64,000 nt of DNA, from NCBI RefSeq assembly GCF_003111645.1, contig NZ_CP022187.1:682001-746000 (forward strand). The letters run 5' to 3'. The notes beneath the pieces were generated by a model. It saw only the letters and a program-made list of their open reading frames with translations, was not told the origin of the DNA and searched no databases. Origin of the DNA: Parazoarcus communis. Its GTDB lineage: Bacteria; Pseudomonadota; Gammaproteobacteria; Burkholderiales; Rhodocyclaceae. Below are positions 2,504-40,288 of this stretch, in pieces. The stretch's first letter is position 1, and each line of letters begins with the position of its first letter. The position numbers and the translations under genes are program-made.

Positions 2504-3337
2504 TCAGGCCATCAGACCGGCCATCGGGGAGGACGGAGAGGCGGAGAAGCGTTTCGGCATGCGCCCGGCGAGATAGGCGTTGCGCCCGGCACGCACGGCG
2601 TCGCGCATGGCCAGCGCCATCCGGATCGGGTCCTGCGCCTTGGCGATCGCGGTGTTCATCAGCACGCCGTCGCAGCCGAGTTCGAGCGCGATGGCCGCAT
2701 CCGACGCGGTGCCGACACCCGCATCGACGATCACCGGCACCTTGGTCTGCTCGATGATCAGCGACAGGTTCCACGGATTCAGGATGCCCATGCCCGAGCC
2801 GATCAGCGAGGCCAGCGGCATGATCGCCACGCAGCCCATGTCTTCGAGCATCTTTGCCTGGATCGGGTCGTCGCTGCAGTAGACCATCACGTCGAAGCCG
2901 TCCTTGATCAGCGTTTCGGCTGCCTTCAGGGTTTCGGGCATGTTGGGGAACAGGGTCTTCTCGTCGCCGAGCACCTCCAGTTTCACCAGCGAGTGCCCAC
3001 CCAACAGTTCGCGCGCCATCTGCAGCGTATAGACCGCGTCCTTGGCGTTGAAGCAGCCCCCGGTGTTGGGCAGGATGGTGAATTGCGAGGGCGGCACCGC
3101 GTCCAGCAGATTGGGTTCGTGCTGGTGCTGGCCGATGTTCACCCGGCGGATGGTCACGGTGACGATGGACGTGCCGCTGGCATCCACTGCGGCGCGGGTT
3201 TCGTCAAAGTCCCTGTACTTGCCGGTGCCCACCAGCAGGCGCGACCCATAGGTCTTGCCGGCGATGGTGAGCTGGTGGTCGGTGTTGCTTTCGGTGTTGC
3301 CGGCTTCGTTGGCCGTGGGCAGGTCATTGAGCTGCAT
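2504..3337 (-). CDS. thiG: Thiazole synthase ThiG
   Basis: A 277-residue protein that forms the thiazole phosphate moiety of thiamine from 1-deoxy-D-xylulose 5-phosphate, dehydroglycine and ThiS-thiocarboxylate. Family marks are [10 protein letters not shown], the Schiff-base lysine in LVKLEVLGD (K119), [13 protein letters not shown] and [15 protein letters not shown]. The first roughly 20 residues are a short unconserved extension. The start at 3335-3337 has a GAGGAG ribosome binding site. It is the last gene of thiC-thiS-thiG; the 16-base gap to thiS indicates an operon. Confidence 0.97.
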
Positions 3338-17604: not shown

Positions 17605-20229
17605 CTACCAGTCCTCGATCGGGATCGGTTTGCTGAAGAGGTAACCCTGGAACTGAGGGCAGCCGTATTCGACCAGCAGGGCATGCTGCGCCTCGGTTTC
17701 CACGCCTTCGGCAATGACGTTCAGGCCGAGCGACTGGCCCATGGCGAGCGTGGCGCGAACGATGGCGGCGTCGTTCTGGTCGGTGGTGATGTCACGAACG
17801 AAGGCCCGGTCGATCTTGACCTGGTCGAGGGGAAGGCGCTTCAGATACGACAGCGAGGAGTAGCCGGTGCCGAAGTCGTCGAGCGAAAAGGTGATGCCGA
17901 TTTCTTTCAACCGGCGCATGCGGTCGATGACGGTCTCGATCGATTCGAGCACGACGCTTTCGGTCAGTTCGAGCTTGAGGCGCTCCGGCCTCGCTCCCGT
18001 GGCGTCAAGCATGGCGATGACCTGATCGACGAAGTCCGCTTGCAAGAATTGCCGGGCGCTGACGTTCACCGCAATGCTCAGTTCCCTGGTGTCCGCATCG
18101 GCTTCCCACTGCTTGAGCTGGGCGCAGGCCGTCTTCAGCACCCAGTCGCCGATCGGAAGAATGAGGCCGCTTTCCTCGGCAACCGGAATGAAACTCGCAG
18201 GTGGCACCGGAGCGGCATTGCTCGGGTACCACCGGAGCAGGGCCTCGGCGCCGATCCGGGTTCCGCTGGAGTCGACCTGCGGTTGGTAGTGGAGCTGGAG
18301 TTCGCCTGCCTTCAGCCCCTGGCGTAGCGCGGTCTCCATCTGCATTCTTGCGTCGATGGCGGCCTGCATGTCGGCACTAAAAAAGCGGACGGCGTTCTTG
18401 CCGGCGCGCTTGGCTTGATACAAGGCGACTTCGGCCTGCTTGAGCAGACCGTCCACGCCGGTGTCTGCGCCTTGAAAGAGGGTGACCCCGATACTCGTGG
18501 TGCAGTCATACTGCTGCGCGCCCCTGCCGATGAAAAAAGGCTTCGACAGCGCAGTACGGCACTGCTCGGCGATGGCTCCGGCCTGCAGCGCGGCGGTGGA
18601 GAGTTCGGCGCCGAGGTTTTCAGCGATGATGACGTATTCGTCACCCCCGGGGCGGGCGACGATGTCTTCACGGCGAACATGGGTGCAAATCTGGTTGGCG
18701 ACTTCGATCAGCAACTCGTCGCCGGCGTCGTGCCCCTGGGTATCGTTGAGATCCTTGAAGCGATCAAGGTCAAGCACCAGCAGGGCGCCAATTTCGCCGC
18801 TGCGGCCGCTGACGCTCAACGCCTGCTGCAGGCGGTCCAGGAGCTGCCGCCGGTTGGGCAAACCGGTCAGACTGTCAAAGTAGGCAAGGTTGCGGATCTC
18901 CTCTTCGGCATGCTTGCGTTCAGAAACGTCCCGCGCGGTGCCGTAATACCTGAAGGGCTTGCCGTCCGCGTTGAAGTCTGTAGCGACGGTGATCTCCAGC
19001 CAGCTCGTGCTGCCGTCCGGGCGGAGCAGCTGGATGAAGGTGTCCGGAATGGTCTCGCCCGGAGAAACCGTCTCCATCTGTGAGCAAAGTGCGTCACCGG
19101 TTGCCTGGCTGTCGGGATGGATCCAGCTGCGCAGCGTGGCCCAGTCGCACCCTGTTGGCGCTTGGCCTGCGATGCGGAAGATCACGTCCGCCAAGTGAAT
19201 GCGCCCGCTCTTGACGTCGACGGACCAGTCGCCTATCCCGGCGATACTGAGCGCACGCTCCAGTTCCGATTTTCGCCGAGCCAGTTCGCGCCTCAACTGA
19301 CGGTTCCAGATCACCGCGCTCAGGTAGGCCAGGCTGACCACCGAAGTCAGGAACAGCAGCCACGGCAGCACGCGACTGGCGAGGCTGTGAGATTCCAGGC
19401 GGAACACCTGTTCGGAGCGCAGCGGCAACCAGCGTACGAAGATCGCCGCCCTCTCGTCCTCGGGAATCGCGAGCAGGGCATGGTCAATGAGTCTGGCCAG
19501 TTCGGGCCAGTCCTTTCGGACGGCAAAGCGCTGGCCGTTCCCGCTCATCTCAAACCCGGCATTGACTTTCAGGTTGGTGATGCCGCGTCGAATCGCCAGA
19601 AAACTGTTGACCCCCAGTGCGCCGACATAGGCATCTGCCGAACCGGTGGCGACGGCATCCAGACCTTCCTCGGGGTTGCCAACGAAGTGAGGATCGAGCC
19701 CGGGAGCGAGCTTGAGCGTCTGCCTGGCTGACGAATAATCACGTACTAGGGCGACGCGCAGATTCTCGAGTGCCTCGACCGACTTCAGCCTGGGCTCGTC
19801 GTTGCGGGTCATGATGACCAACGGCGTTGGCAGATAGATGCGGCTGAAGACGAAGTCGGCCTCGCGCTCGGGCAGCTTCACCATGGTGGCGATGGCGTCG
19901 ATTTGCCCCTGCTTCAAGGCTGCCATCAATCCCGGCCAGTCGAGATGGGTCTTCAGCGAGAAGCGGACGCCCAGCTTCTTTTCGATGTGTCCGAGAAAGT
20001 CGGGCACGACGCCCTGTGCGCGGCCTTGCTCATCCAGGAAGGAGTAGGGGCCGTAATTGGGGTCGATGCCCAGGCGGATGACGGGGTGCGCCGCCAGCCA
20101 AGCCGCGTCGGCGGACGACAGCGCGCGCGCCGGATCCGCGGTTGAGTCATCTGCAACTGCGAAGCCACTGAGAGCAAGGAAGAGCAGATACAGCAGCGAC
20201 GGTGTAATGGGAGGTAACGTCAATCTCAT
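17605..20229 (-). CDS. Periplasmic-binding sensor with PAS, GGDEF and EAL domains
   Basis: An 874-residue membrane protein. It has a signal peptide (1-26), a bacterial solute-binding type 3 domain (about 50-285, LGIDPNYGPYSFLDEQGR), a transmembrane helix (about 288-315), a PAS domain (about 325-435), a GGDEF domain with GGDEY at 528-532, and an EAL domain with EAL at 662-664 and DDFGTGYSS plus AEGVET intact. It should make or break cyclic-di-GMP in response to a periplasmic amino acid or other small ligand. GGDEY is a mild variant of the synthase motif; both activities could be retained. It is convergent with the Lin0512 genes. Confidence 0.92.
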   Translation of the reverse strand: MRLTLPPITPSLLYLLFLALSGFAVADDSTADPARALSSADAAWLAAHPVIRLGIDPNYGPYSFLDEQGRAQGVVPDFLGHIEKKLGVRFSLKTHLDWPGLMAALKQGQIDAIATMVKLPEREADFVFSRIYLPTPLVIMTRNDEPRLKSVEALENLRVALVRDYSSARQTLKLAPGLDPHFVGNPEEGLDAVATGSADAYVGALGVNSFLAIRRGITNLKVNAGFEMSGNGQRFAVRKDWPELARLIDHALLAIPEDERAAIFVRWLPLRSEQVFRLESHSLASRVLPWLLFLTSVVSLAYLSAVIWNRQLRRELARRKSELERALSIAGIGDWSVDVKSGRIHLADVIFRIAGQAPTGCDWATLRSWIHPDSQATGDALCSQMETVSPGETIPDTFIQLLRPDGSTSWLEITVATDFNADGKPFRYYGTARDVSERKHAEEEIRNLAYFDSLTGLPNRRQLLDRLQQALSVSGRSGEIGALLVLDLDRFKDLNDTQGHDAGDELLIEVANQICTHVRREDIVARPGGDEYVIIAENLGAELSTAALQAGAIAEQCRTALSKPFFIGRGAQQYDCTTSIGVTLFQGADTGVDGLLKQAEVALYQAKRAGKNAVRFFSADMQAAIDARMQMETALRQGLKAGELQLHYQPQVDSSGTRIGAEALLRWYPSNAAPVPPASFIPVAEESGLILPIGDWVLKTACAQLKQWEADADTRELSIAVNVSARQFLQADFVDQVIAMLDATGARPERLKLELTESVVLESIETVIDRMRRLKEIGITFSLDDFGTGYSSLSYLKRLPLDQVKIDRAFVRDITTDQNDAAIVRATLAMGQSLGLNVIAEGVETEAQHALLVEYGCPQFQGYLFSKPIPIEDW

Positions 20230-23813: not shown

Positions 23814-26147
23814 CTAGTGGCGGCTCTGGATCTCGTCGATGTAACCGATCATGCCGGTGCGGATGTTGGCCGCATTGCCTTCGTCGGTGTCGATGTGCAT
23901 CGCCAGGCGGAACGCCGGGTTCACGCGGACGACGACGTCCCCGAAAATCAGTTCGCGCTCGCCCTTGATGCGCACGCGCACGACGTAGTTGTCGCGCACC
24001 CGGAAACGCAAGGCATCTTCCGGGGTCATGTGAATGTGGCGCTGCGCGCAGATCACGCCGCGCTCTATCGTGGTGCTGCCGACGGGGCCCTCAAGGGTAA
24101 TGCCGGGCGTGTTGGCGAGATCGCCTGACTGGCGGATCGGCGGCTGAATGCCGACCTTGAACTGCTCCGTCATCGCGATTTCCACCTGCGTTTCCTTGCG
24201 CGTCGGGCCGAGCACCCGGACGTTGGCAATGCGGCCTTTGGGGCCGACCAGGTGCACCTTCTCGGCGCAGGCAAACTGTCCCGGTTGCGACAGTTCATGT
24301 TCCGGCGTGAGCTGGTGACCGGGGCCGAAGAGCTTTTCCACATCGGCCTGCGACAGATGGACATGGTGGGCCGAGATCTCGATCGGGATCGGCGCCTCGG
24401 CCTGATCTTCCTTCATCGCCTGAATCAACTCGTTGCGTTCGATTGCACGCAGGCTTTCCCAGGCCACGAGCCGCTCGTCGTCGTTGGCGATCACGATAAT
24501 CGTGACCGGCGAGTCGTCAGCCGAAATGATCTTGTACGTGTCGAGCTTTCCGACGTTGCGGTTCTTCTCCTCGTCGAGCTTGATGCCCATGTAGCTCAGG
24601 CCCTGACACGCCAGGCTGCGCACCGTGGCGCTGGTTTCGCCGATGTCGCCAGTGAAGGTCAGCACATCGATCCCGCCCATTGCCGCCACATAGGCGCCGA
24701 TGTTCTTGCGGATCTGGTAACAGAAGGCCTTGTGCGCGAGGAGCGCACGATGGTGGCCCGCACTGGCAGCGACTTCGATCTCGTGAATGTCGCTGGAAAT
24801 GCCCGAGATGCCCTTGAGACCGCTCTCGGTGTTGATCAGGTCCGACAGCTGGGCCGGCGTCATGTCGTGGTGCTGCAGCAGCTGGATCATGACCGCGGGG
24901 TCGATGCTCCCCGAGCGACTGGGCATGATGAGGCCGTCGGTGGGCGTCATGCCCATCGTGGTGTCGACCGAACGCCCATGATCGATTGCGCACAACGAGG
25001 CGCCAATGCCAAGGTGGCAGGACACGATCTCGAGTTCGCCGAGGGGGCGCTTGAGGACCTCTGCAGCCTTCAGCGATACATACCGGTGCGAGGTGCCGTG
25101 AAAACCATAGCGGCGGATGCCGTCCTTCTTGTACAGATCGTAGGGCAGACCGTAAAGATAGGCGTAGGGCGGCAGGGTCTGGTGGAAAGCGGTATCGAAC
25201 ACGGCGACCTGAGGCACGCCGGGCAACTGCTTCATTGCCTCGCGAATGCCCTTGACGTTTGCCGGGTTGTGCAGCGGTGCGAATACCGAAAGCGCTTCGA
25301 TGTCTGCAATCACCGCGGGTGTGATCACCACCGAGCTGGAGAACTTGCTGCCACCATGAACCACCCGGTGGCCGACCGCACTCACGTCCAGCAGGTGAAA
25401 GGCAAAAGCCTCGCCGAGCAGGGCGCAGGACGCCTGCATCACCGCGAACAGATCTGAGAGCGGAAAGGGCTCACGCTCCATGCTGCGGCTCTGCGGCCCC
25501 ACGCTGACGCGGATATGAACACGGTCGCGGTCGGTATTGTCGATGATGCCGTGCACGTCCGAGTCAAGGTCGTGCGTGTCGTAGATGCCGAAGTGGATCT
25601 GGCTGATGCCGACGTTCAGCACGACGACCTTGCCCGCCGTGTTGGTTGCAAGCGACAGCGCATAGGGATCGTCCGAGCGTGCTCTGGCCTTGCACTTTGA
25701 CGCGACGAGGTCCGACGTCATGGTCCTGATGCGCTCGGCATGCAGGCGCGAGAGATAGGCGACGCACTTCGGATTGGTCAGTATGTACGCCTGGAAGACG
25801 TCCTGCGGAATCATCAGCACTAAGCAGCGACTGCCGGCAATGACGTCGGCCACGATGGGTTCGCCGGTGAGCAGCGAGATCACGCCGAACACGTCGCCTT
25901 CGTCCAGCTGGCTGATTACCGTGCGGGTGCCGGTGTTGTCGGAGACCGACACCTCGGCGGTCCCGCTGATCACGACGCCCATGAACCTTCCTTCGTCGCC
26001 GGTCTCGAGGATCGCCTCGTTGCCCTCGAAGGTCGCAAGACGGGACCTGGAGAGGATCTCCTCCACCTTGTCCGCGGGGAAGCTTTCGAACAGTCGAACC
26101 CGCTCGAGAAAGAACTGCTTCAGATCCGTTTCGCTCATACCCGTCAT
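23814..26147 (-). CDS. Triple fusion: cNMP-binding domain + acetate kinase + PduL phosphotransacylase
   Basis: A 777-residue polypeptide. Residues about 12-140 are a Crp/PKA-type cyclic-nucleotide-binding fold (GDVFGVISLLTGEP); the usual PRxA arginine is absent (PIVADV). Residues about 172-575 are acetate kinase-like: RVVHGG (R261), APLHNP (H293), FDTAFHQ (D318), YGFHGTSH (H350) and SRSGSIDPA (R411) are kept, but the phosphate motif NxGSSSLK reads NVGISQIH (178-185), HLGNG reads HLGIG (I381), and TNEE reads NDDE. Residues about 586-775 are PduL phosphotransacylase with both zinc HxH motifs (HVHL at 595-597, HIHM at 704-706) and HIDTDE intact. It could link acyl-CoA, acyl phosphate and acetate in one chain. 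The kinase may be impaired or repurposed. A second start is at 26138. Confidence 0.9.
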   Translation of the reverse strand: MTGMSETDLKQFFLERVRLFESFPADKVEEILSRSRLATFEGNEAILETGDEGRFMGVVISGTAEVSVSDNTGTRTVISQLDEGDVFGVISLLTGEPIVADVIAGSRCLVLMIPQDVFQAYILTNPKCVAYLSRLHAERIRTMTSDLVASKCKARARSDDPYALSLATNTAGKVVVLNVGISQIHFGIYDTHDLDSDVHGIIDNTDRDRVHIRVSVGPQSRSMEREPFPLSDLFAVMQASCALLGEAFAFHLLDVSAVGHRVVHGGSKFSSSVVITPAVIADIEALSVFAPLHNPANVKGIREAMKQLPGVPQVAVFDTAFHQTLPPYAYLYGLPYDLYKKDGIRRYGFHGTSHRYVSLKAAEVLKRPLGELEIVSCHLGIGASLCAIDHGRSVDTTMGMTPTDGLIMPSRSGSIDPAVMIQLLQHHDMTPAQLSDLINTESGLKGISGISSDIHEIEVAASAGHHRALLAHKAFCYQIRKNIGAYVAAMGGIDVLTFTGDIGETSATVRSLACQGLSYMGIKLDEEKNRNVGKLDTYKIISADDSPVTIIVIANDDERLVAWESLRAIERNELIQAMKEDQAEAPIPIEISAHHVHLSQADVEKLFGPGHQLTPEHELSQPGQFACAEKVHLVGPKGRIANVRVLGPTRKETQVEIAMTEQFKVGIQPPIRQSGDLANTPGITLEGPVGSTTIERGVICAQRHIHMTPEDALRFRVRDNYVVRVRIKGERELIFGDVVVRVNPAFRLAMHIDTDEGNAANIRTGMIGYIDEIQSRH

Positions 26148-30442: not shown

Positions 30443-31729
30443 TCAGCCCGGCGTCGGGATCAGCCCCAGCGACAGCCACGGGACGAAGGCGATCAGCAGC
30501 CAGGAGATCACCAGTCCGGTCATGTACATCACGGCGAATCGTACGAGTTGCGAGTACGGAATGCCGGTGACGCCACTGGCAACGAACAGGTTCAGTCCGA
30601 AAGGTGGCGTGATGAAGCCGATGGCGGCACCGACAAGGAAGATCACCGAGAAGTGAACCGGATCGACACCGGTTGCAACCGCGATCGGGGCCAGGATCGG
30701 GGCAAAGATCACCGTGACGGGCAGGCTCTCGAGAATGCAGCCCGCAGCGAGCACGATGCCCATGCACACCAGCAGCACGACGGTTTCACCGTTGCCGAAC
30801 CAGGCCACGAAGGCAGCGACCGTCTCTGCCGCACCGAGCAGTGCGAACACCTGCTGCATCACGATCGATACTGCGATCATGGGTGCCAGCATGCCCGTCA
30901 GCTGGCCTGAGCGCAGCAGGATGTCGGGCAGTGCTTTCCACTTGATCTCACGCGTCAGCAGCAGACCGGCAACGAGGCAGAAGCCCACGGTGATCGCGGC
31001 CGCTTCGGTCGGCGAGAAGATGCCCGAGTAGATGCCGAAGATGACGATGAAGATCGCGAAGAAGCCGAGGTAAGCCTGCCGTGCCGTGCGGAACACGCGC
31101 TTCATGTCGAGCGGCGTAACCGAGCCCCAGCCGTGCTTGCGACACATCCACCAGCACACCGCCTGCATCGCGATCACCATCAGCATGCCGGGCAGGATGC
31201 CGGCGACGAACAGGTCGGAGATCGACAGGTTCATCAGGAAGCCATACACGATGAAGATGATCGACGGCGGAATGATGATCCCGACCGTGCCGCCTGCTGC
31301 TGCAGTTGCTGCGGCAAACCGGCTGTCGTAGCCGTCGGCCTTGAGCAGCGGATGCATGATGCCGCCGATGGTCGCCGTGGTGGCCGAGTTCGAGCCCGAG
31401 ATGGCCGCAAACAGCCCGCAGGAGCCGATCGTCGCCAGCCCCAGGCCGCCGCGCATCCAGCTCAGGCAGGCATGTGCAAAGTTGGCCAGGCGGGTGGCGA
31501 TGCCGGCGGCAGCAATCAGGTCACCGGTGAGGATGAAGAGTGGCAGTGACAGCAGGCCGAAGAAGTTGAGCCCTTCGAACAGCGTGACGCCGATGTTGGC
31601 CAGCGTGAAATCGATTACCAGCGAGACACCGGTTACCCAGAGCGCGATGACGAGAAAGATCGGCACGCCGACCAGGAACAGGCCGATAACGCCAAGCGAT
31701 ACGAGCGTGATAAGTATTGAGTTGTCCAT
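30443..31729 (-). CDS. iseM: TRAP transporter large permease (DctM family)
   Basis: A 428-residue membrane protein with about 12 helices, the ion-coupled channel of a tripartite ATP-independent periplasmic transporter. Typical stretches: ISGSNSATTATIGGIMHPLL, GGTVGIIIPPSIIFIVYG and GFITPPFGLNLFVASG. It is the last gene of the minus-strand run GMC dehydrogenase - DctP - DctQ - DctM, starting 9 bases after the DctQ stop with a GAGGAG site. By context it imports isethionate (IseKLM). The substrate is inferred; the family is certain. Confidence 0.93.
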   Translation of the reverse strand: MDNSILITLVSLGVIGLFLVGVPIFLVIALWVTGVSLVIDFTLANIGVTLFEGLNFFGLLSLPLFILTGDLIAAAGIATRLANFAHACLSWMRGGLGLATIGSCGLFAAISGSNSATTATIGGIMHPLLKADGYDSRFAAATAAAGGTVGIIIPPSIIFIVYGFLMNLSISDLFVAGILPGMLMVIAMQAVCWWMCRKHGWGSVTPLDMKRVFRTARQAYLGFFAIFIVIFGIYSGIFSPTEAAAITVGFCLVAGLLLTREIKWKALPDILLRSGQLTGMLAPMIAVSIVMQQVFALLGAAETVAAFVAWFGNGETVVLLVCMGIVLAAGCILESLPVTVIFAPILAPIAVATGVDPVHFSVIFLVGAAIGFITPPFGLNLFVASGVTGIPYSQLVRFAVMYMTGLVISWLLIAFVPWLSLGLIPTPG

Positions 31730-31738
31730 GCTTGCTCC

Positions 31739-32272
31739 TCAGTCTCCGCCGACGGTCTGGATGTCGACCAGGAAGGGTTCGCGGCGGCGAAAGCGGCCGA
31801 TGTCCTGCATGAGATTCTGCAGCGCCCGAATCATCAGGATTCCCCAGCCGACGGGCGTGGCGAGGTAGAACCACCATTGCATGACGTTGTCCGTGCCCTG
31901 CACGATCGAAAAGTTGTCATAGGCGAGCTGAGTCTGTTCGATGGTGAACCAGGCAACGATGGAGCCGAAACCGATCCACAGGATGGTGTCGAGCCACATC
32001 ATGGCGAACTGCATTCCGTAGGGCATGCGCAGGCGAAAGTCGTTGAAAACCAGATGTGTGCGTTTCTTGACGTTATAGGCACATCCAACCCACGCCACCC
32101 ACAGGAACAGGTAGATCGGGATCGACGTGCTCCAGGGAATCTGGGTGCTGAAGACATAGCGTTCGAAGACCGCATACACGATGATCAGGGCCATGCTGGA
32201 GTATGCGATGAGGATGAGTGTGCGTTCGGCGTTGCGGTCCAGCCACCGAAGTAGCGCCATCAGGTACGACAT
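31739..32272 (-). CDS. iseL: TRAP transporter small permease (DctQ family)
   Basis: A 177-residue protein with four hydrophobic helices (LILIAYSSMALIIVYAV first). The basic cytoplasmic R/K motifs and the position between DctP and DctM identify it as the DctQ subunit. Its start follows GGAGACATCCCC. It couples the periplasmic binding protein to the large permease. Confidence 0.88.
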   Translation of the reverse strand: MSYLMALLRWLDRNAERTLILIAYSSMALIIVYAVFERYVFSTQIPWSTSIPIYLFLWVAWVGCAYNVKKRTHLVFNDFRLRMPYGMQFAMMWLDTILWIGFGSIVAWFTIEQTQLAYDNFSIVQGTDNVMQWWFYLATPVGWGILMIRALQNLMQDIGRFRRREPFLVDIQTVGGD

Positions 32273-32356
32273 GGGGATGTCTCCAAAAACATGACGGTGG
32301 GCGCCGACCCCGCGCGGAGCGGAGTCGGCCGTGTGCTAGTTGAAGGCTTGTGCCAA

Positions 32357-33583
32357 TCAGGCGTTCTGCCACCAGCGGCGTGCCTTTACGTCGGCTACCG
32401 CGGTGTTCTTCGGGATCTCGCGCGCGATGTCGAAGATTTCCTTGTAAACATCCTGGCCACCCGACATCTTGGACAGACGCTCGCGCCACTCTTCCCACGG
32501 CTTGGGGTTGTACTCGGGGGAGCACATCTTTTCGGCCTTGAGAATTTCCGCATCGGAGAGCGTGGCCACACGCACCTTGTTCTTGCCGAACACGGTGTCC
32601 GGGCCGGGGTTGGGGACTGCACCAACGACGTCGATCAGTGCCTTTTCCTGCTCGCGCTGGGTGTATTGCTGGGCGGCGAACGAGGTTTCCATCACCACGT
32701 CCTGCAGGTTTGACGGCAGCTTTTCGAAGGTCTTGTTGTTCATTGCGGTGTGTTCCGTGCCGCAGAAGAACTTCAGATCCACCGCCTGCGACAGCACGGG
32801 CGCCATGTTGGCGTAGGCGGCTGCACCCATCCAGGTTTCTGCGCCATCGATCAGGCCTTGCTTGAGGCCGTCGAGGGTTTCTTCCCAGGAGATCGGTACC
32901 GGGTTGAGGTTCATCAGCTGCATCGCGATGCGCCCGAGCTGGGTGCCGGTGACGCGGTTCTTGGTGCCGGCGAGCTGCTCCACGCTGGTGATCAGCGGTG
33001 CGTCGGCGAATTTCTTGCCGAGCATGATGCCGCGCAGTTCGCAGTGGCTGTAAAGGAACTGGATGTTGTGACGCTTGCGCATCGGCTCGCGGAACAGCTT
33101 TTCGCTCTTCGGGTGATAGAGGAAGTAGTGCTGTGCGGCGCGCGACGGGAACATGTACGCGAAGTCGAGCACGTTGTAATACGGTGCCGCGCCAGCCGAG
33201 TTCTGCGTGCTGGCCGAGAACAGGTCGATGATGCCCTGCTGGGCCTTCTTGACGCAGTCGAGCTGGTTGCAGATGGCGTTGCTGCCGATGAAGTCGATCT
33301 TGAGCGCGCCGTTGCTGCGTTTCTCAAGTTCCTGCGCGAACCACAGCTGACCCGATTCCTGGATCTTCAGGTTTTCTTCGTTAAAGCCCGAAGCGCCGAA
33401 CTTGAGCGTCATCAGCGGGGTGCTCGCGTTGCGAGCGTCAGCCGTGGCGGCGGCGGCCTGCGCAACGCCTTCAAGGGTGAGCGGGCCAACGATGCCGGTT
33501 GCGGCAAGCACGGTTGACGTCAATCCGTAACGACCTGCGATGCGCAGGAATCCGCGACGATCAAGAGGTGTCTGATTGGCCAT
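32357..33583 (-). CDS. iseK: TRAP transporter substrate-binding protein (DctP family)
   Basis: A 408-residue periplasmic binding protein. A Tat-like signal ([10 protein letters not shown], residues 8-17) with hydrophobic stretch and AQA-type cleavage region precedes the mature protein. The DctP fold is seen in [10 protein letters not shown]-like and [14 protein letters not shown] segments and in the RVTGTQLGR loop near the usual carboxylate-binding arginine. ATG 33581-33583 is chosen for its GAGGAGAC site. It sits 73 bases after the GMC dehydrogenase. Isethionate as ligand is inferred from context. Confidence 0.9.
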
Positions 33584-33657
33584 TTGAGTGTCTCCTCTGG
33601 GTGGCATTTCGGGCTTCATTGCCCTTGTAAAAGTGGTGAGGCTGCTACTACGCTGGT

Positions 33658-35253
33658 TCAGCGTCTGTCTGCCTTGATCATGTCGGCCGCTTTCTCGGCA
33701 ATCATGATCGTCGGGGCGTTGGTGTTGCCCGATACGAGCTCGGGCATGATCGAGGCATCGACCACGCGCAGTCCGTCGAGGCCGTGCACCTTCAGGCGGT
33801 CATCGACAACGGCGAGGGGGTCGTGCCCCATCTTGCAGGTGCCTGCAGGGTGGTAGATGGACTGGCTGTAGCGTCGGGCCGCATCGAGCAGTTCGGCATC
33901 GGTCTGGAACTGCTCGCCGGGGACGAATTCGGAAATGATGTGCGGCTTGAGCGAGGGGGCCTGTGCGATACGGCGGGCAACCTTGATGCCGCCGATCACG
34001 ACCGGGTGGTCGCGTTCGTCCGACAGGTAGTTGGGATGGATCGCCGGGTACTCGAGCGGATCGTTGGACCTGATCTCGATGTGGCCGCGGCTGAAAGGAC
34101 GCAGCTGGCACACCGACGCGGTAAAGGCCGAGAACGGATGCGCGCCTTCACCGGGCTTGTCGGCGCTGAGCGGCTGCATGTGAAACTGGATGTCGGGGCG
34201 CTCTGCCTCGGGGCCGGAGCGGGTGAAAATGGTGACCTGGCTGGCGGCCAGCGTCAGCGGGCCGGTGCGCGACATCATGTACTGCATGCCGATCCACAGC
34301 TTGTGGATGGGGCTGTTCACTTCATCGTTGAGGGTGCGCTCACGCGTCTTGAGTACGAGGCGTACCTGGAGGTGGTCCTGCAGGTTGCGGCCTACGCCGG
34401 GCAGTTCGTGATGGAGGGCTACGCCGGCCTTGTTCAGCACGTCGGCTGGGCCTACGCCCGAGTTCTGCAGGATCTGCGGCGAGCCGATCGCGCCTGCGGC
34501 GAGAATGACTTCAGCACGTGCGCGTGCCGTGCACAGTTTTCCGCCCTGCATGTATTCGATGCCTGCAGCGCGCTTGCCCTCGAACAGGATACGGGTGGTC
34601 TGGGCGTGGGTTTCGACGATCAGGTTCGGGCGCTTGCGTGCAGGGCGCAAAAAGCCCTTTGCCGTGCTCCAGCGGAAGCCCTTGTGTGCGGTCTGCTGGA
34701 AGTAGCCTACGCCTTCCTGACTGGCGCCGTTGTAGTCGTCGTTCAGGGGGATGCCGATATCCTGGGCGGCGGCAATGAAGTGGTCGGCAATCGGACGCCG
34801 CAGGCGAAGGTCGGATACCTTGAGCGGGCCGCCGACGCCGTGGTATTCGCTTGCGCCACGTTCCTGGTCTTCGGATTTCCGGAAGTAGGGCAGGACGTCC
34901 TTGAAACTCCAGCCCTTGTTGCCCAGCGCTTCCCAGCGATCGTAATCCTCGTGCTGGCCGCGCACATAGAGCAGACCGTTCAGTGAGCTGGAGCCGCCCA
35001 GTACCTTGCCGCGCGGCCATTGCAACTGGCGCCCGGCGAGACCTTCGTCGGCCTCGGTGCGGTAGCACCAGTCATAGCGCGGGTCATGCATGGTCTTGAA
35101 GTAACCGACCGGGATGTGAATCCAGGGGTTGTTGTCGGGGCCGCCCGCTTCGAGCAGCAGAACCTTGCTCCTCGAATCCTCGCTCAGGCGGTTGGCGAGC
35201 ACGCAACCCGCCGAGCCTGCGCCAACAACGATGTAATCCACTTCGTGGGCCAT
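33658..35253 (-). CDS. iseJ: GMC oxidoreductase, probable isethionate dehydrogenase
   Basis: A 531-residue flavoprotein of the choline-dehydrogenase-like GMC family. The FAD-binding [19 protein letters not shown] is at residues about 6-24, the GMC signature [19 protein letters not shown] is near residue 80, and the C-terminal active-site histidine lies in [10 protein letters not shown] with [18 protein letters not shown] at the end. IseJ of this family oxidises isethionate to sulfoacetaldehyde. It heads the operon with the TRAP genes and is divergent from iseR, with xsc and pta nearby. Choline or another primary alcohol is the alternative substrate. Confidence 0.9.
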
Positions 35254-35326
35254 GAACGGTGTCTCCTGATTGCTCCGTTCGACATAGAGGGTTTCAACTC
35301 TAGGTGTCGAAGCCTGTTTTTGAAAG

Positions 35327-35368
35327 TGAAACGCTGCGTTTCATAAAAGCTGTATAGTGACTATTGAT
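35327..35368. promoter_or_regulatory. Composite palindromic operator of the iseJ-iseR divergent promoter
   Basis: TGAAACGCTGCGTTTCA at 35327-35343 is a perfect 17-base palindrome. ATAGTGACTAT at 35354-35364 is a second perfect palindrome, extended to ATAGTGACTATTGAT. The first overlaps the spacer of a possible promoter (TTGAAA ... ATAAAA) for iseR. Both lie between the divergent iseJ and iseR starts, the expected place for autoregulated IclR control. Confidence 0.65.
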
Positions 35369-35413
35369 CGAGGTATAAGAAAAACCAAGGCTAATCTGCA
35401 ATGGAGACAGAAA

Positions 35414-36265
35414 ATGAAACAGAATCGCGTTCATGCGGACCAGAATCGCACTGCAGCATTGCCTGATCCGGACGAATTCGATGAAACACTGTCCGAGCTC
35501 GACGGTGCCAATGAGGATGTGCGAAGACTGCGGCCACTCACCGTTCTGGAACTCCTCACCGAATCGACGCAACCGCTCACGCTGGCGCAACTTGCGGGCC
35601 TGATGCGCGTACCCAAGAGCACGCTGATGCGCTTGCTGCAGTCGATGGAGAAGCACGGTTACGTGCTGCACATGCCCGCCGAGAGAGGCTTCGTTACCGG
35701 GCCCCGTGCCAACACGCTGGCGCTGAAGACCTTGCGCGGAACCAACATGCGGCGGGCATGCAGGGCGGTGCTGCGCAACCTGGTCAACAGGCTTGGAGAA
35801 ACCTGCAACCTGACGGTGCCGGACGCAGGCCGGGTGCTCTATGTCGAACGTGTAGAAACGAGTGAGCCGCTGCGCATGCACCTTCCCCTCGGCACCTGGG
35901 TCCCGATGCACTGCACGGCCAGCGGAAAGCTCTTTCTTGCGTCCATGACACTGCTCGAGCGCCAGAGCATCCTGTCGCGCCAGGTGCTCGCCCGGCATTC
36001 ACCGCACACGATCATCGACCGCCAGGAGCTGGAGGCCGAGCTGGCGAAGAACATGAAGCGCGGCGTCGGGGTCGACAACGAGGAGTTCGTGCGCGGCATG
36101 ATTGCCGTATCGGTTCCGGTTCACGGACCCGACGGCAAGGTGGTTGCAGCGATTGCCTGTCATGCGCCGACTGCACGCCTGTCGCTCGACAATCTGTTCG
36201 AGAACGTGCCCCAACTGAGGTCTGCTGCCACCGAGATGGGTGCCATCCTCTTTCCGGAAAGCTGA
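35414..36265 (+). CDS. iseR: IclR-family regulator of the isethionate genes
   Basis: A 283-residue IclR regulator: winged helix at about residues 35-105 (LAGLMRVPKSTLMRLLQSME) and an effector domain (VPMHCTASGKLFLASM, VDNEEFVRGMIAVSVPV). The ATG at 35414 follows GGAGACAG. It is divergent from iseJ and shares a control region holding two palindromes, one pair of which recurs at the MHS carrier. It is clearly a different protein from the two xsc-linked IclR copies. IseR is the expected regulator of isethionate genes; the ligand is unproven. Confidence 0.88.
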   Translation: MKQNRVHADQNRTAALPDPDEFDETLSELDGANEDVRRLRPLTVLELLTESTQPLTLAQLAGLMRVPKSTLMRLLQSMEKHGYVLHMPAERGFVTGPRANTLALKTLRGTNMRRACRAVLRNLVNRLGETCNLTVPDAGRVLYVERVETSEPLRMHLPLGTWVPMHCTASGKLFLASMTLLERQSILSRQVLARHSPHTIIDRQELEAELAKNMKRGVGVDNEEFVRGMIAVSVPVHGPDGKVVAAIACHAPTARLSLDNLFENVPQLRSAATEMGAILFPES

Positions 36266-36291
36266 TACCCCGGACCCCGGCACGGATCGAT

Positions 36292-37053
36292 TCAGAATGC
36301 CAGTTCCGAGAGTGCCGACACCACCAGGCCTGCACCGATCAGGATCAGGATGCCGAAGGCAATGCGCCGCATCGTGACCTGTGCCAGCGGGGGCGGGTAG
36401 TGCCTGCCGGCCGCAGTGGCGAGTGCGACGAGCAGGGCGGCGATTGCGGCCAGGATCCAGATCTCGCGTGTAAGTTCGCCGTTGATCCCGAGATAGACCG
36501 TGCGTGTCGCCGACGTGAAGGCGAACACCAGCAGCAGCATGTGGCGCACGACAGCCAGATCCATCGGCTGGCGATAGAAGTGGAAGATCGCGGGGGGGCC
36601 GGCCATGCCGAAGAGACCGCCGAACAGGCCGGAGAACAGTCCACAGACGAAGAAGCCGCGGTCGGGCGAGCGTTCCGCGTGCTGCGTCGGGCGCAGGGCG
36701 AACACCACGCCGCTGTAGGTAATGACCGCGCCGAGCAGGAGTTTCAGAATGATTGATGCGGCGCTGTTCAGGTAGTTGAGCAACAGCACGCCGGCCACGA
36801 TTGACGGGATGACGCCGAGCAGCACCGCTCCTGCCGCCCGCCAGTCGACAAGGTGCATGCGCCCTGGCAGCGCCACGGCACTGTTGACCAGGGTGATCAG
36901 GCTGACGACCGCGGCGACGACCGGAACCGGCGCCAGCTCGAATCCACTCGTCGCGCCCATCACGATCATGCCGAGACCGAAACCGGTCACGGTCTGGATA
37001 TATGTCGCGATCGCAATCACAAACATGAGTGCGGTGAGGTGTTCGATACTCAT
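36292..37053 (-). CDS. tauE: TauE/SafE-family sulfite exporter
   Basis: A 253-residue protein with about eight helices, in two half-repeats carrying the TauE motifs TGFGLGMIVMG (about residues 23-33) and GGLFGMAGPPAIF (about residues 144-156). TauE of Cupriavidus exports sulfite formed by Xsc. It lies 75 bases downstream of pta on the same strand and converges with iseR. This window also encodes a YeiH-type exporter beside the other xsc copy. Confidence 0.87.
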   Translation of the reverse strand: MSIEHLTALMFVIAIATYIQTVTGFGLGMIVMGATSGFELAPVPVVAAVVSLITLVNSAVALPGRMHLVDWRAAGAVLLGVIPSIVAGVLLLNYLNSAASIILKLLLGAVITYSGVVFALRPTQHAERSPDRGFFVCGLFSGLFGGLFGMAGPPAIFHFYRQPMDLAVVRHMLLLVFAFTSATRTVYLGINGELTREIWILAAIAALLVALATAAGRHYPPPLAQVTMRRIAFGILILIGAGLVVSALSELAF

Positions 37054-37128
37054 TGTTTGTCCGCCCAGTTAGGTCAGACGCCCGGCGCGGTCCGGATGGG
37101 GCCGGTGCGGGCGTTCGGTGCCGACGCC

Positions 37129-38145
37129 TTATGCGGCAGCCGCCGATTTTGCTGTCAGTGCCTGCACCACGGTGACTGCGATGACGTGAAAGACGTCTTC
37201 GGCGCTGCAGCCGCGCGAGAGGTCGTTGGCGGGTTTGGCCAGGCCTTGCAGCAGAGGGCCGATGGCGACCGCACCCCCTACGCGCTCGGCCAGCTTGTAA
37301 CCGATGTTGCCGGCTTCGAGGTTGGGGAAGATCAGGACGTTGGCCTTGCCCTTGACCTGGGATGCCGGCAGCTTGCGGTTGGCGATCTCGGCGACGATGG
37401 CGGCATCGAGCTGCACATCTTCGTCGATGGCCAGCCCGGGCCGCTGTGTCTTCACCAGGCGCGACGCCTCGACCACCTTGTCTACCGCGGCGTGGCGGGC
37501 GCTGCCGCTGGTGGAGAAGGACAGCATTGCAACGCGCGGTTCTTCCATCAGCAGGTTGCGTGCGCTGTCCGCAGCGGCCATGGCGATCTCGGACAGTTCG
37601 GTTGCGTTCGGATCGACGACCAGACCGCAGTCGGAGAAGATCAGTCCGCCCTTGAGCGTATGAAAGGGCTCGCACAGCATCATCAGGAAAAAGCTGGATA
37701 CGAGCTTGAATGACGGGTTCACACCGATCACCTGGATCGCATTGCGCACGACATCCGCGGTGGTGCGGACTGCGCCCGATACGGTGCCGTCGGCGTAGCC
37801 GGTGCGTACCAGCAGGTTGGCGCAGACCAGCGGATCGCGTGCAGCAGTCTCTGCCTGCTCGGCGGTCATGCCTTTCTTGCTGCGCAACTCGAACAGGGTG
37901 CGGGCGAGCGCGGCCTGGTTGGGGGCGTCGGCCGGGTCGTGAAACTCGATGCCGTCTAGCGGCAGTCCATGCTCGGCTGCCAATGCGGTGCTGCGGTTGC
38001 GATCCCCGACCAGAATGATCCGGGCAATGCCTTCTCGGGTTGCACGTACGGCAGCCTCGAGTACGCGGGCGTCGTCACCTTCGGACAATGCAATCCGCGC
38101 GGGCGCGCTTTGCGCCTGCTCAATGATTCGGTTGAGCGCTTTCAT
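37129..38145 (-). CDS. pta: Phosphate acetyltransferase
   Basis: A 338-residue Pta of the short (catalytic domain only) type, which converts acetyl phosphate plus CoA to acetyl-CoA. PTA motifs: VKGKANVLIFPNLEAGNIGYK and the MSGAVRTTADVVRNAI-like active-site helix (SGAVRTTADVVRNA). The start has a GAGGAAC site. It is the usual partner of Xsc, removing its acetyl phosphate product. A rho-independent terminator separates it from xsc copy 2 upstream, so it probably has its own promoter in 38146-38345. Confidence 0.95.
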   Translation of the reverse strand: MKALNRIIEQAQSAPARIALSEGDDARVLEAAVRATREGIARIILVGDRNRSTALAAEHGLPLDGIEFHDPADAPNQAALARTLFELRSKKGMTAEQAETAARDPLVCANLLVRTGYADGTVSGAVRTTADVVRNAIQVIGVNPSFKLVSSFFLMMLCEPFHTLKGGLIFSDCGLVVDPNATELSEIAMAAADSARNLLMEEPRVAMLSFSTSGSARHAAVDKVVEASRLVKTQRPGLAIDEDVQLDAAIVAEIANRKLPASQVKGKANVLIFPNLEAGNIGYKLAERVGGAVAIGPLLQGLAKPANDLSRGCSAEDVFHVIAVTVVQALTAKSAAAA

Positions 38146-38185
38146 CAGTCTCGTTCCTCACGAAGTCCGGCTGTGGGAGGTGCAG

Positions 38186-38234
38186 AAAAAAATGCGCCGG
38201 AAACCCTGGTTAAGGGGGACCAGGACTTCCGGCG
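38186..38234 (-). terminator. Rho-independent terminator after xsc copy 2
   Basis: On the minus strand a long stem (CGCCGGAA and ACCAGG arms, 38195-38234) is followed by CAT and seven T residues (A-run at 38186-38192). It lies between xsc copy 2 and pta and should end the xsc transcript. A second perfect 8-bp hairpin (CTCAATCC / GGATTGAG) is at 38240-38271. Confidence 0.85.
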
Positions 38235-38345
38235 AAAAACTCAATCCAAGGAGGGATGGGTCTGGATTGAGCGGTGCAGACAGGGTGCAGCAACGGAGAC
38301 AATTGCCTGAGGGGTCAGCAATCGCCTCTGCATTTGCTCAGCAGG

Positions 38346-40166
38346 TCAGACGTAGTCCTTGTACTTGTCGAGGTGACGAACCGGCTTGGACAGTGCATCG
38401 CGGCGGAAGGGGTCGCCGAGCTCACGGGTACACATGATCTCGATGATGGTGGTCTTGCCTTCGTTCATCTGCATGTCGATGGCCTTCTTCAGCGCCGGGC
38501 CGACATCCTCGATTTTGTCGACGGTGATGCCCTCGGCGCCCATGGCGCGGGCGATCTCGGCGAAGGACTGGTTGTCGAGCTCACCGGCGACGAAGCGGCG
38601 GTTGTAGAAATCGACCTGGTTCTTCTTCTCCGCACCCCACTGACGGTTGTGGAACACCACCGCGGTGACCGGGATGTTGTGACGCACGCAGGTCATGGTC
38701 TCCATCAGGCTCATGCCCCAGGCACCGTCGCCGGCGTAGGACACGGCCGGACGATGGGGCGCGGCGACCTTGGCACCGATGATGGTGGGGAAGGCGTAAC
38801 CGCAGTTGCCGAAGCTCATCGCCGCGAAGAAGGAGCGCGGCTTCTCGAAGCGCAGGTAGCTGTTGGCCACCGAGTTGATGTTGCCGATGTCGGTCGACAC
38901 CATCACGTCCTCGGGCATCGCCTTCTCGAGCTCACGCAGCACCTGACGCGGATGCAGATAGTCGCCACCCTGGAAGGTCTTCTCCTTCGCGTTCTCCTCG
39001 ATCATGTCGAGGCTGAAGGCATCCTTCTCGTGCGTCCACTCGTCGAGCTCCTTCTCCCACGCCGCCTTCTCGTCGGCGATCTTCTGCGCGCGGGCAGCCT
39101 TGTCGGCATCGCACGCCAGGGTCTTGCCTTCCAGACGACGGGTCAGCGCCACGGCGGCCGCCTTCGCATCGCCGCAGATCCCGACCGAGATCTTCTTCAC
39201 CAGGCCGAGCATCTTGTTGTCGGCGTCGATCTGGATGATCTTTGCGTTCTTGGGCCAGTAGTCCATGCCGTGCTGGGGCAGGGTACCGAAGGGGCCCAGA
39301 CGCGAACCCAGCGCCACCACCACGTCGGCCTGCGCCATCAGCTTCATCGCCGCCTTCGAACCCTGGTAGCCCAGCGGGCCGCACCACAGCGGATGGCTCG
39401 CGGGGAAGGAATCGTTGTGCAGGTAGCTATTGACCACCGGTGCGCCCAGGCGCTCGGCCAGGGCCTTGCACTCCTCGACCGCATCGGCCATCACCACGCC
39501 ACCGCCGGAGATGATCACCGGGAACTTGGCCGTGGCCAGCAGCGCTGCGGCCTCGTCGAGCGACTGCTCGCCACCGGCGCCCCGGTCCAGACGGGCGGGC
39601 TTGGGAATCTCGCAGGTAATGTCACCGTAGAAATAGTCACGCGGAATGTTCAGCTGGGTCGGGCCCATCTCGCTCATGGCGCGATCGAAACAGCGGCCGG
39701 TGTACTCGGCCATGCGGGCCGGGTGGGTCACGTGGCCCTGGTACTTGGTGAACTCCTGGAACATCGGCAGCTGGTTGCACTCCTGGAAACCACCCAGCCC
39801 CATGCCCATGGTGCCCGTCTCCGGGGTCACGATCACCACCGGGCTGTGGGCCCAGAAGGCGGCGCCGATCGCGGTCACGCAGTTGGAGATGCCGGGGCCG
39901 TTCTGGCCGATCACCACGCCGTGGCGACCCGAGACGCGGGAGAAGCCATCGGCCATGTGGCCGGCGCCCTGCTCATGCACCACCGGGATCAGGCGGATGC
40001 CGGCCGGCGCGAAGATATCCATCGCATCCATGAAGGCCGAGCCCATGATGCCGAACATGTCGGTCACGCCGTTCGAGACCAGGGTCTCGACGAAGGCCTC
40101 GGAAGGGGTCATGCGGGTGGGACCGACGGGCACGGACCGGTTGGCTTGGCTGTTCTGATCGCTCAT
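38346..40166 (-). CDS. xsc: Sulfoacetaldehyde acetyltransferase, copy 2
   Basis: A 606-residue thiamine-diphosphate enzyme, identical in protein sequence to copy 1 as far as I can compare; the nine or so base differences are synonymous. E65 and GDGAWGMS are both present. It sits next to pta, tauE and the ise genes, so this copy is in the complete catabolic context. Start choice is as in copy 1. A divergent IclR gene shares its promoter. A terminator separates it from pta. Confidence 0.95.
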   Translation of the reverse strand: MSDQNSQANRSVPVGPTRMTPSEAFVETLVSNGVTDMFGIMGSAFMDAMDIFAPAGIRLIPVVHEQGAGHMADGFSRVSGRHGVVIGQNGPGISNCVTAIGAAFWAHSPVVIVTPETGTMGMGLGGFQECNQLPMFQEFTKYQGHVTHPARMAEYTGRCFDRAMSEMGPTQLNIPRDYFYGDITCEIPKPARLDRGAGGEQSLDEAAALLATAKFPVIISGGGVVMADAVEECKALAERLGAPVVNSYLHNDSFPASHPLWCGPLGYQGSKAAMKLMAQADVVVALGSRLGPFGTLPQHGMDYWPKNAKIIQIDADNKMLGLVKKISVGICGDAKAAAVALTRRLEGKTLACDADKAARAQKIADEKAAWEKELDEWTHEKDAFSLDMIEENAKEKTFQGGDYLHPRQVLRELEKAMPEDVMVSTDIGNINSVANSYLRFEKPRSFFAAMSFGNCGYAFPTIIGAKVAAPHRPAVSYAGDGAWGMSLMETMTCVRHNIPVTAVVFHNRQWGAEKKNQVDFYNRRFVAGELDNQSFAEIARAMGAEGITVDKIEDVGPALKKAIDMQMNEGKTTIIEIMCTRELGDPFRRDALSKPVRHLDKYKDYV

Positions 40167-40288
40167 GATGCGCTGTCTCCTGTTAGGGAAGGTTTTATAT
40201 CGAAACCGGTACGAAGAGTTCCGATAAGTGAGATTGAGACGAACTTTAGGCTGGCGAGAGATGGGAGTCAACGAAAAATTTCAAAAAA

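Follow-up and report, generated by a model that had tools for sequence, protein, structure and literature searches.

Passages of a study of the Methanosarcina thermophila acetate kinase (AckA) describe N211, G239, G331 and R285 as surrounding the nucleotide and name the PHOSPHATE1 residues as important; single changes of N211, G239 and G331 lower the activity 6- to 200-fold, and single changes at several such sites reduce the activity without abolishing it (PMC4390882). According to sections of a second paper, R91 and R241 bind the carboxylate of acetate, E384 is regarded as a metal ligand, and the E385A change at the equivalent of the metal residue in P. gingivalis abolishes the activity (PMC6461089). 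The roles of the zinc ligands and the phosphate arginine of PduL are given in parts of a third paper, which also notes two-domain Ack-PduL fusions together with a channelling idea (PMC4784909); the passages of PMC4207490 that we consulted contain nothing on such fusions. In our literature search, which covered mostly papers free of subscription, none of the titles and abstract openings listed dealt with a clade of three-domain proteins with a cyclic nucleotide-binding (cNMP) fold, an acetate kinase domain and PduL, and acetate kinase, PduL and cyclic nucleotide-binding (domain) never occurred together in one publication found. The statement of the first-pass annotation that no protein of this architecture has been characterised is therefore in agreement with this search for the three domains, whereas two-domain fusions are in print. 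The Ack-PduL fusion is already known; the three-domain clade with altered kinase residues described here appears to be new.

The window, that is, the whole stretch of 64,000 nucleotides of Parazoarcus communis DNA that was analysed, contains one such gene of 777 codons on the minus strand (23814..26147). Its frame is free of internal stops, as the first-pass annotation had reported, and all three Pfam matches are above the curated cut-offs: cNMP_binding (PF00027, residues 39-124, 5.3e-17), Acetate_kinase (PF00871, residues 173-562, 5e-127) and PTAC/PduL (PF06130, residues 588-762, 8.5e-78); no further Pfam family was found on the 777-residue protein. PF00871 followed by PF06130 on one chain makes it an Ack-PduL fusion. 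The alignments of homologues begin mostly at residues 2 to 5 of the protein, commonly at residue 4, and translation may therefore begin at the ATG at 26138 and not at that at 26147. An AlphaFold2 model, made from a 14-sequence alignment, was poor (mean pLDDT 51, pTM 0.31).

A scan with one genome per species met 178 encoding stretches. The 80 best matches among them (71-87% identity) were used; these come from Azoarcus, Parazoarcus, Zoogloea, Dechloromonas, Azonexus, Thauera, Sulfuritalea, Propionivibrio, further Rhodocyclales and others. Together with genome matches, they gave 88 rows above 60% identity, which after the removal of 6 duplicate rows left 82 distinct proteins besides the query (the 83-sequence set). 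Adding 26 sequences from 25 loci, picked for divergence or duplication, brought the number of sequences to 109 and that of distinct members to 104, including the window's own protein. Among 297 sampled genomes of the window's family, 61 including the window's own matched at 1e-120; two of these (G781 and G935) were left out, since their matches were partial and crossed stops, and thus 59 genomes in 17 genera carry the three-domain gene. The nearest kin of the window's gene are in Azoarcus/Parazoarcus genomes. A search of plasmids matched 414 records, none of which covered 80% of the query.

A frameshift or an assembly error joining separate genes, the artefact envisaged in the first-pass annotation, was ruled out, since the same frame is found in the 82 distinct relatives from other assemblies (two cut by contig ends). 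The loss of many conserved residues might suggest a gene in decay, and this possibility, together with mis-assembly, is refuted by the intact frames of the 104 distinct members (two of them truncated at contig ends) and by the dN/dS ratios of 0.02-0.11 in the kinase and PduL domains; we consider its probability negligible. The ratios were obtained by the Nei-Gojobori method with our own script for five pairs (the window gene versus L006, L035, L057, L041 and L036; dS values reach 1.3 for distant pairs), and were 0.05-0.11 for the kinase domain, 0.02-0.05 for the PduL domain and 0.15-0.33 for the cNMP domain. The kinase domain is strongly constrained despite the loss of its ATP residues.

The acetate kinase-like domain (residues 173-567, 24447..25631, minus strand) is homologous over its whole length to M. 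thermophila AckA (1g99; 5e-96), and the numbering used below is that of the M. thermophila enzyme. The residues on the acyl-phosphate side are common to both proteins, whereas 1g99 uses ATP and all eight nucleotide and metal residues that we examined differ in the window protein. The substitutions listed in the first-pass annotation (NVGISQIH, HLGIG and NDDE) are present, and changes of the same kind beyond its list were found at G239 (to P), R285 (to H) and G331 (to D). On the minus strand, they lie in PHOSPHATE1 (NVGISQIHF, 25590..25616; N7 kept and S10, S12 and K14 replaced), PHOSPHATE2 (HLGIG, 25002..25016; H208 kept and N211 replaced), LOOP3 (PSR, 24915..24923; G239 replaced and R241 kept), LOOP4 (DIH, 24783..24791; the adenine-stacking R285 replaced), the ADENOSINE motif (FTGDIGET, 24633..24656; G331 replaced) and the metal-site DDE (24474..24482; E384 to D). 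These substitutions are normal within the clade, for which we found no characterisation.

The eight near-invariant ATP/metal residues (S10, S12, K14, N211, G239, R285, G331 and E384) are all absent from 93 of the 104 members, and the remaining 11 keep one, R285. For comparison, all eight are present in 43 of 52 ordinary acetate kinases, seven in 4 and six in 5; this non-random set consists of the best matches of the query in its own, relatives' and phylum genomes and includes the two-domain fusions L116 and L117. None of the members keeps any of the PHOSPHATE1 residues S10, S12 and K14: position 10 is L, I, V, H, M or R, position 12 is Q in 99 and R in 5, and position 14 is H in 84 and R in 20. 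Likewise, N211 (I in 78, V in 21, other in 5), G239 (P in 91, S in 6, A in 6, T in 1), G331 (D in 85, E in 11, R in 5, other in 3) and E384 (D in 97, N in 5, H in 2) are kept in no member, and position 285 is H in 90, R in 11 and A in 3. On the acyl-phosphate side, a complete set of nine residues was found in 103 of the 104 members. Taken singly, the acyl-phosphate residues R91, V93, H123, D148, F179, H180, P232 and R241 are kept in 104/104, as is E334; H208 is kept in 103 and N7 in 101. L122 of the acyl pocket, outside the nine counted, is kept in 95 and is otherwise Y, Q, M or F.

Since the eight residues had been selected after the changed columns were known, we extended the analysis to every near-invariant column of the kinase domain, taking a column as replaced when its residue is kept by at most 12% of the members (or 10% as a stricter limit) and using borders of the nucleotide/metal segments that we drew from the literature. 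At the 94% level, 25 of the 70 near-invariant columns are in nucleotide/metal segments, and all seven replaced columns fall there (P = 0.0004; 6/6 with the 10% limit, P = 0.0014). The enrichment was also seen at the 90% level (9/13, P = 0.007; 8/12 with the 10% limit, P = 0.017) and at the 88% level (9/14, P = 0.011). By these residue counts, the ATP/metal half of the site is replaced as a set and the acetate/acetyl-phosphate half has hardly moved. In one genome, the three-domain gene is present as a tandem duplicate (L158; G817:C59, frames at 3027 and 5529), and both copies have N7 changed to D and R at S11, a further drift on the nucleotide side.

The PduL domain (residues 588-762, 23862..24386, minus strand) was aligned with 5cuo, which we take to be the PduL of Rhodopseudomonas palustris (E 2.6e-50), and the correspondence of residues was set by motif on this alignment. 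The intact zinc motifs reported in the first-pass annotation hold for the whole clade: the zinc ligands H48, H50, E109, H157, H159 and H204 (H595, H597, E656, H704, H706 and H751 of the window protein) and the phosphate arginine R103 (R650) are kept in all 104 members, except for a gap at H204 in one contig-end sequence (103/104). The zinc ligands and the arginine are common to both proteins, whereas the R. palustris PduL is a stand-alone metabolosome enzyme and that of the window is fused. PduL is the most conserved part of the three-domain protein (the mean share of members with the window's residue in the 83-sequence set is 0.91, versus 0.81 for the kinase and 0.71 for the cNMP domain), and judging from its conserved site it is very probably active.

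The cNMP fold of the N-terminal domain (residues 13-145, 25713..26111, minus strand) is clear from PDB matches to the regulatory subunits of PKA and to CRP. The canonical phosphate-binding cassette of cAMP-binding proteins, with its glutamate and its arginine, is seen in these alignments. In the window protein, the cassette GVISLLTGEPIVADV (residues 88-102, 25842..25886, minus strand) is degenerate, and both usual residues are replaced. In the family alignment, the arginine column holds I, T, V, L, S, M, N or A and never Arg (0/104), although an Arg stands one residue earlier in 82 members; the glutamate is kept in 26 and absent in 78. The absence of the cassette arginine makes gating by cAMP doubtful, and these residues weaken the case for cAMP or another usual cNMP as the ligand. 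The fold probably serves assembly, or regulation by something other than plain cAMP. The cNMP part also gives a match to the NCBIfam model ActPatMycb56, with a score far under the cut-off of that model. Mycobacterial Pat consists of a cNMP domain and an acetyltransferase and binds cAMP. As in the window protein, its cNMP domain heads an acetyl-group enzyme, although the enzyme part is a different one.

A three-domain protein with an intact kinase part was found in one genome of the same phylum outside the window's class (L115). It is 54% identical to the window protein over residues 4-776, keeps all eight ATP/metal residues with canonical kinase motifs, and is encoded by the only PF00871 gene of its genome; in its cassette, the glutamate is kept and T stands in the arginine column. 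In a FastTree phylogeny of 93 kinase domains with a midpoint root, all 41 family tips formed one clade (0.82) with L115 as its sister (1.0). No other three-domain protein with an intact kinase was found among 398 genomes of the phylum, 300 of the window's order, 289 of the class of G348 and 199 of the order of G348, in searches with strict E limits that scored two, three or five candidates per genome and may thus have missed some. At least one further PF00871 gene is present in 55 of the 59 carriers of the altered form (kinase counts by eye); the carriers without one are G720, G731, G811 and G860 (98, 85, 91 and 59% complete, respectively). The eight-residue check covered those further kinases that were in the comparison set; among the genes checked, the other PF00871 gene of the window genome (L002, C1:2719274), which adjoins Pta-like stretches, is canonical at the checked residues. 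The simplest history, with one protein on the side of the ancestor, is that the ATP function of a three-domain acetate/acyl-phosphate enzyme disappeared where a further kinase could supply it, while the protein itself was retained for another use.

Two-domain Ack-PduL fusions with the kinase followed by PduL, the order of the window protein, were found in L116, L117, L184, a Polaromonas plasmid (L162) and a Sinorhizobium plasmid (L163), the order being read from Pfam for L116 and L162; for L117, L163 and L184 it was taken from their alignment with the query or from their printed translation. Unlike the window protein, L116 and L162 have no cNMP domain by Pfam, and unlike the window clade, L116, L117, L162 and L163 keep all eight nucleotide residues. 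In L116 and L162, the fusion gene adjoins a gene whose translation reads as a probable partial phosphoketolase; the Polaromonas plasmid copy also has ppk2, fabI, DUF3141 and a P-type ATPase as neighbours. In the Sinorhizobium plasmid, the match is split inside PduL and annotated as two genes. The matches excluded from the carriers (G781:C1:379546-381042 and G935:C84:2787-4598) consist of a 400-codon acetate kinase frame and, past stops, a PduL-like stretch; they are probably separate genes that lie side by side in a different genus of the family.

The first-pass annotation had pointed out that acetyl phosphate is also the product of the nearby Xsc. The xsc gene (38346-40271, minus strand) is about 12 kb from the three-domain gene and lies beside its own pta (37129-38145, minus strand). 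No Pta was found in the loci of 80 relatives, and Xsc had one weak match (L109), which at 27% identity is therefore another enzyme of that superfamily; a functional link is thus unsupported, although this is a weak test, since the relatives' loci (55 of 80 at full length) extend no more than 8 kb to either side of the target, short of the 12 kb that separate the genes here. In a comparison of 11 window genes with the 80 loci, no conserved neighbour was found, and identity above 50% was seen only in L041, from the same genus; an EAL/GGDEF gene of the window matched three loci at 35-39%. Within six genes of the target, 25 of the 80 loci had a gene of one cluster that reads by eye as GGDEF-type and 16 had one that reads as a sulfite reductase; since this count had crude ORF picking (antisense frames in GC-rich DNA) and no background control, we attach no weight to it. 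Scans for promoters and terminators gave nothing above chance. Genes for a TRAP transporter (DctM, DctQ and DctP), a GMC oxidoreductase, Pta and Xsc lie on one strand at 30443-40271 (minus), an arrangement that looks like a sulfonate-use cluster, the substrate being a guess; a large protein with solute-binding, PAS, GGDEF and EAL domains is encoded at 17605-20229 (minus). In L109 and G033:C1 (15448 and 26853), the three-domain gene has at a distance of about 12 kb or less another gene for acetate kinase, which is about 40% identical to the kinase part of the query.

We propose, with about even confidence, that the protein joins a PduL-type phosphotransacylase to an acetate kinase domain that does not use ATP/ADP and likely binds acyl phosphate as a sensor or a buffer. 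PduL would interconvert acetyl- or propionyl-CoA plus Pi with acyl phosphate plus CoA. The kinase fold, keeping the acetate/acetyl-phosphate half-site, would hold the acyl phosphate (or the acyl carboxylate and phosphate) made by the adjoining PduL, and the acyl phosphate sensed or stored there may set the output of PduL, or may be slowly hydrolysed. The loss of ATP use, the binding of acyl phosphate and the regulation are what we infer from the replaced and retained residues. A more specific version, which we regard as tentative, is a pseudo-acetate-kinase repurposed throughout the clade, in which an ATP-free receptor for acetyl phosphate would gate the PduL that shares its chain and produces its ligand; the acid at 331 and the Gln/His of PHOSPHATE1 may replace the phosphates of the nucleotide, and the cleft would close on acetyl phosphate alone. 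Against this, the near-fixed changes of S12 to Q and E384 to D hint that these positions have taken on a new function and have not simply lost one. Note that weak activity is possible, since N7, D148 and E334 are kept and the change of E384 to D is mild. No acetate kinase was among the listed matches of a search of the pseudoenzyme literature.

An active kinase with another phosphoryl partner, such as PPi/Pi, as in the Entamoeba acetate kinase, or poly-P, would lead from acyl-CoA by way of acyl phosphate to PPi or poly-P. Donor choice depends most closely on G331, and 96 of the 104 members have an acidic residue at this position, as putative bacterial PPi kinases also have Asp there according to passages of PMC5517563, and the near-fixed Q and frequent H of PHOSPHATE1 suggest a defined new site. 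The same passages, however, mark PPi kinases by a longer PHOSPHATE2 loop and an Asp beside position 331 (PMC5517563). The Entamoeba histolytica PPi-acetate kinase (4h0o) shares the replacement of G331 with all 104 members and has both of these marks, whereas the window protein has neither: the loop has no extra residue in the 83 aligned sequences or versus 1g99, and the residue before 331 is Gly (G500) in 104/104. Moreover, six residue types occur in the clade at each of positions 331 and 10, a variability more in keeping with the loss of a site than with a new, specific site. We therefore rate regulation above an alternative donor, which appears unlikely, if the least so of the alternatives.

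Hydrolysis, above which regulation was also rated, ranks slightly lower and is improbable. In a putative acyl phosphatase, no nucleotide would be bound and water would take the phosphoryl group, turning acyl-CoA into acid, Pi and CoA as an overflow or CoA-recycling valve. The intact D148, H180, R91 and R241 in 104/104, the adjoining intact PduL that would make the substrate and the strong purifying selection are consistent with such an enzyme, but the metal ligand E384 is changed, and we met in passing no precedent for an acetate kinase fold turned phosphatase. The first-pass annotation had offered either a ligand-gated acetate switch or a kinase that has become a sensor, and the latter fits the clade-wide loss of ATP/metal residues with the acyl side kept better than the former. 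For the switch, in which a cyclic nucleotide would control a fully active PduL and an ATP-dependent acetate kinase, the sister L115 speaks through its eight kinase residues and its cassette glutamate, and such an enzyme may have been the ancestor. In the window's clade, however, at most one of the eight nucleotide residues is left and the cassette is altered, as it is in L115 at the arginine, although the Arg that 82 members have one residue earlier may allow some anion binding; the switch thus seems the most doubtful of these three. The preferred reading remains that of an acetate kinase fold turned sensor or buffer beside a probably active PduL.

The NCBIfam ackA model (TIGR00016) accepts the three-domain protein (409.5 bits, cut-off 293.4), and metabolic models for relatives of Zoogloea, Dechloromonas, Azonexus, Thauera and Azoarcus should therefore not list the gene among the acetate kinases. 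Acetyl phosphate has a central place in metabolism and acts as a global signal, and dedicated protein sensors for it are, to our knowledge, little known. If the proposed reading is true, acetyl phosphate would have a protein sensor in this clade, and the living relative L115 would, by its residues, still be a kinase. The apparently ATP-competent L115 and the ATP-blind form would show which of the two halves of an acetate kinase is dispensable when selection maintains the other, and the two would form a pair for testing the change of an enzyme into a sensor.
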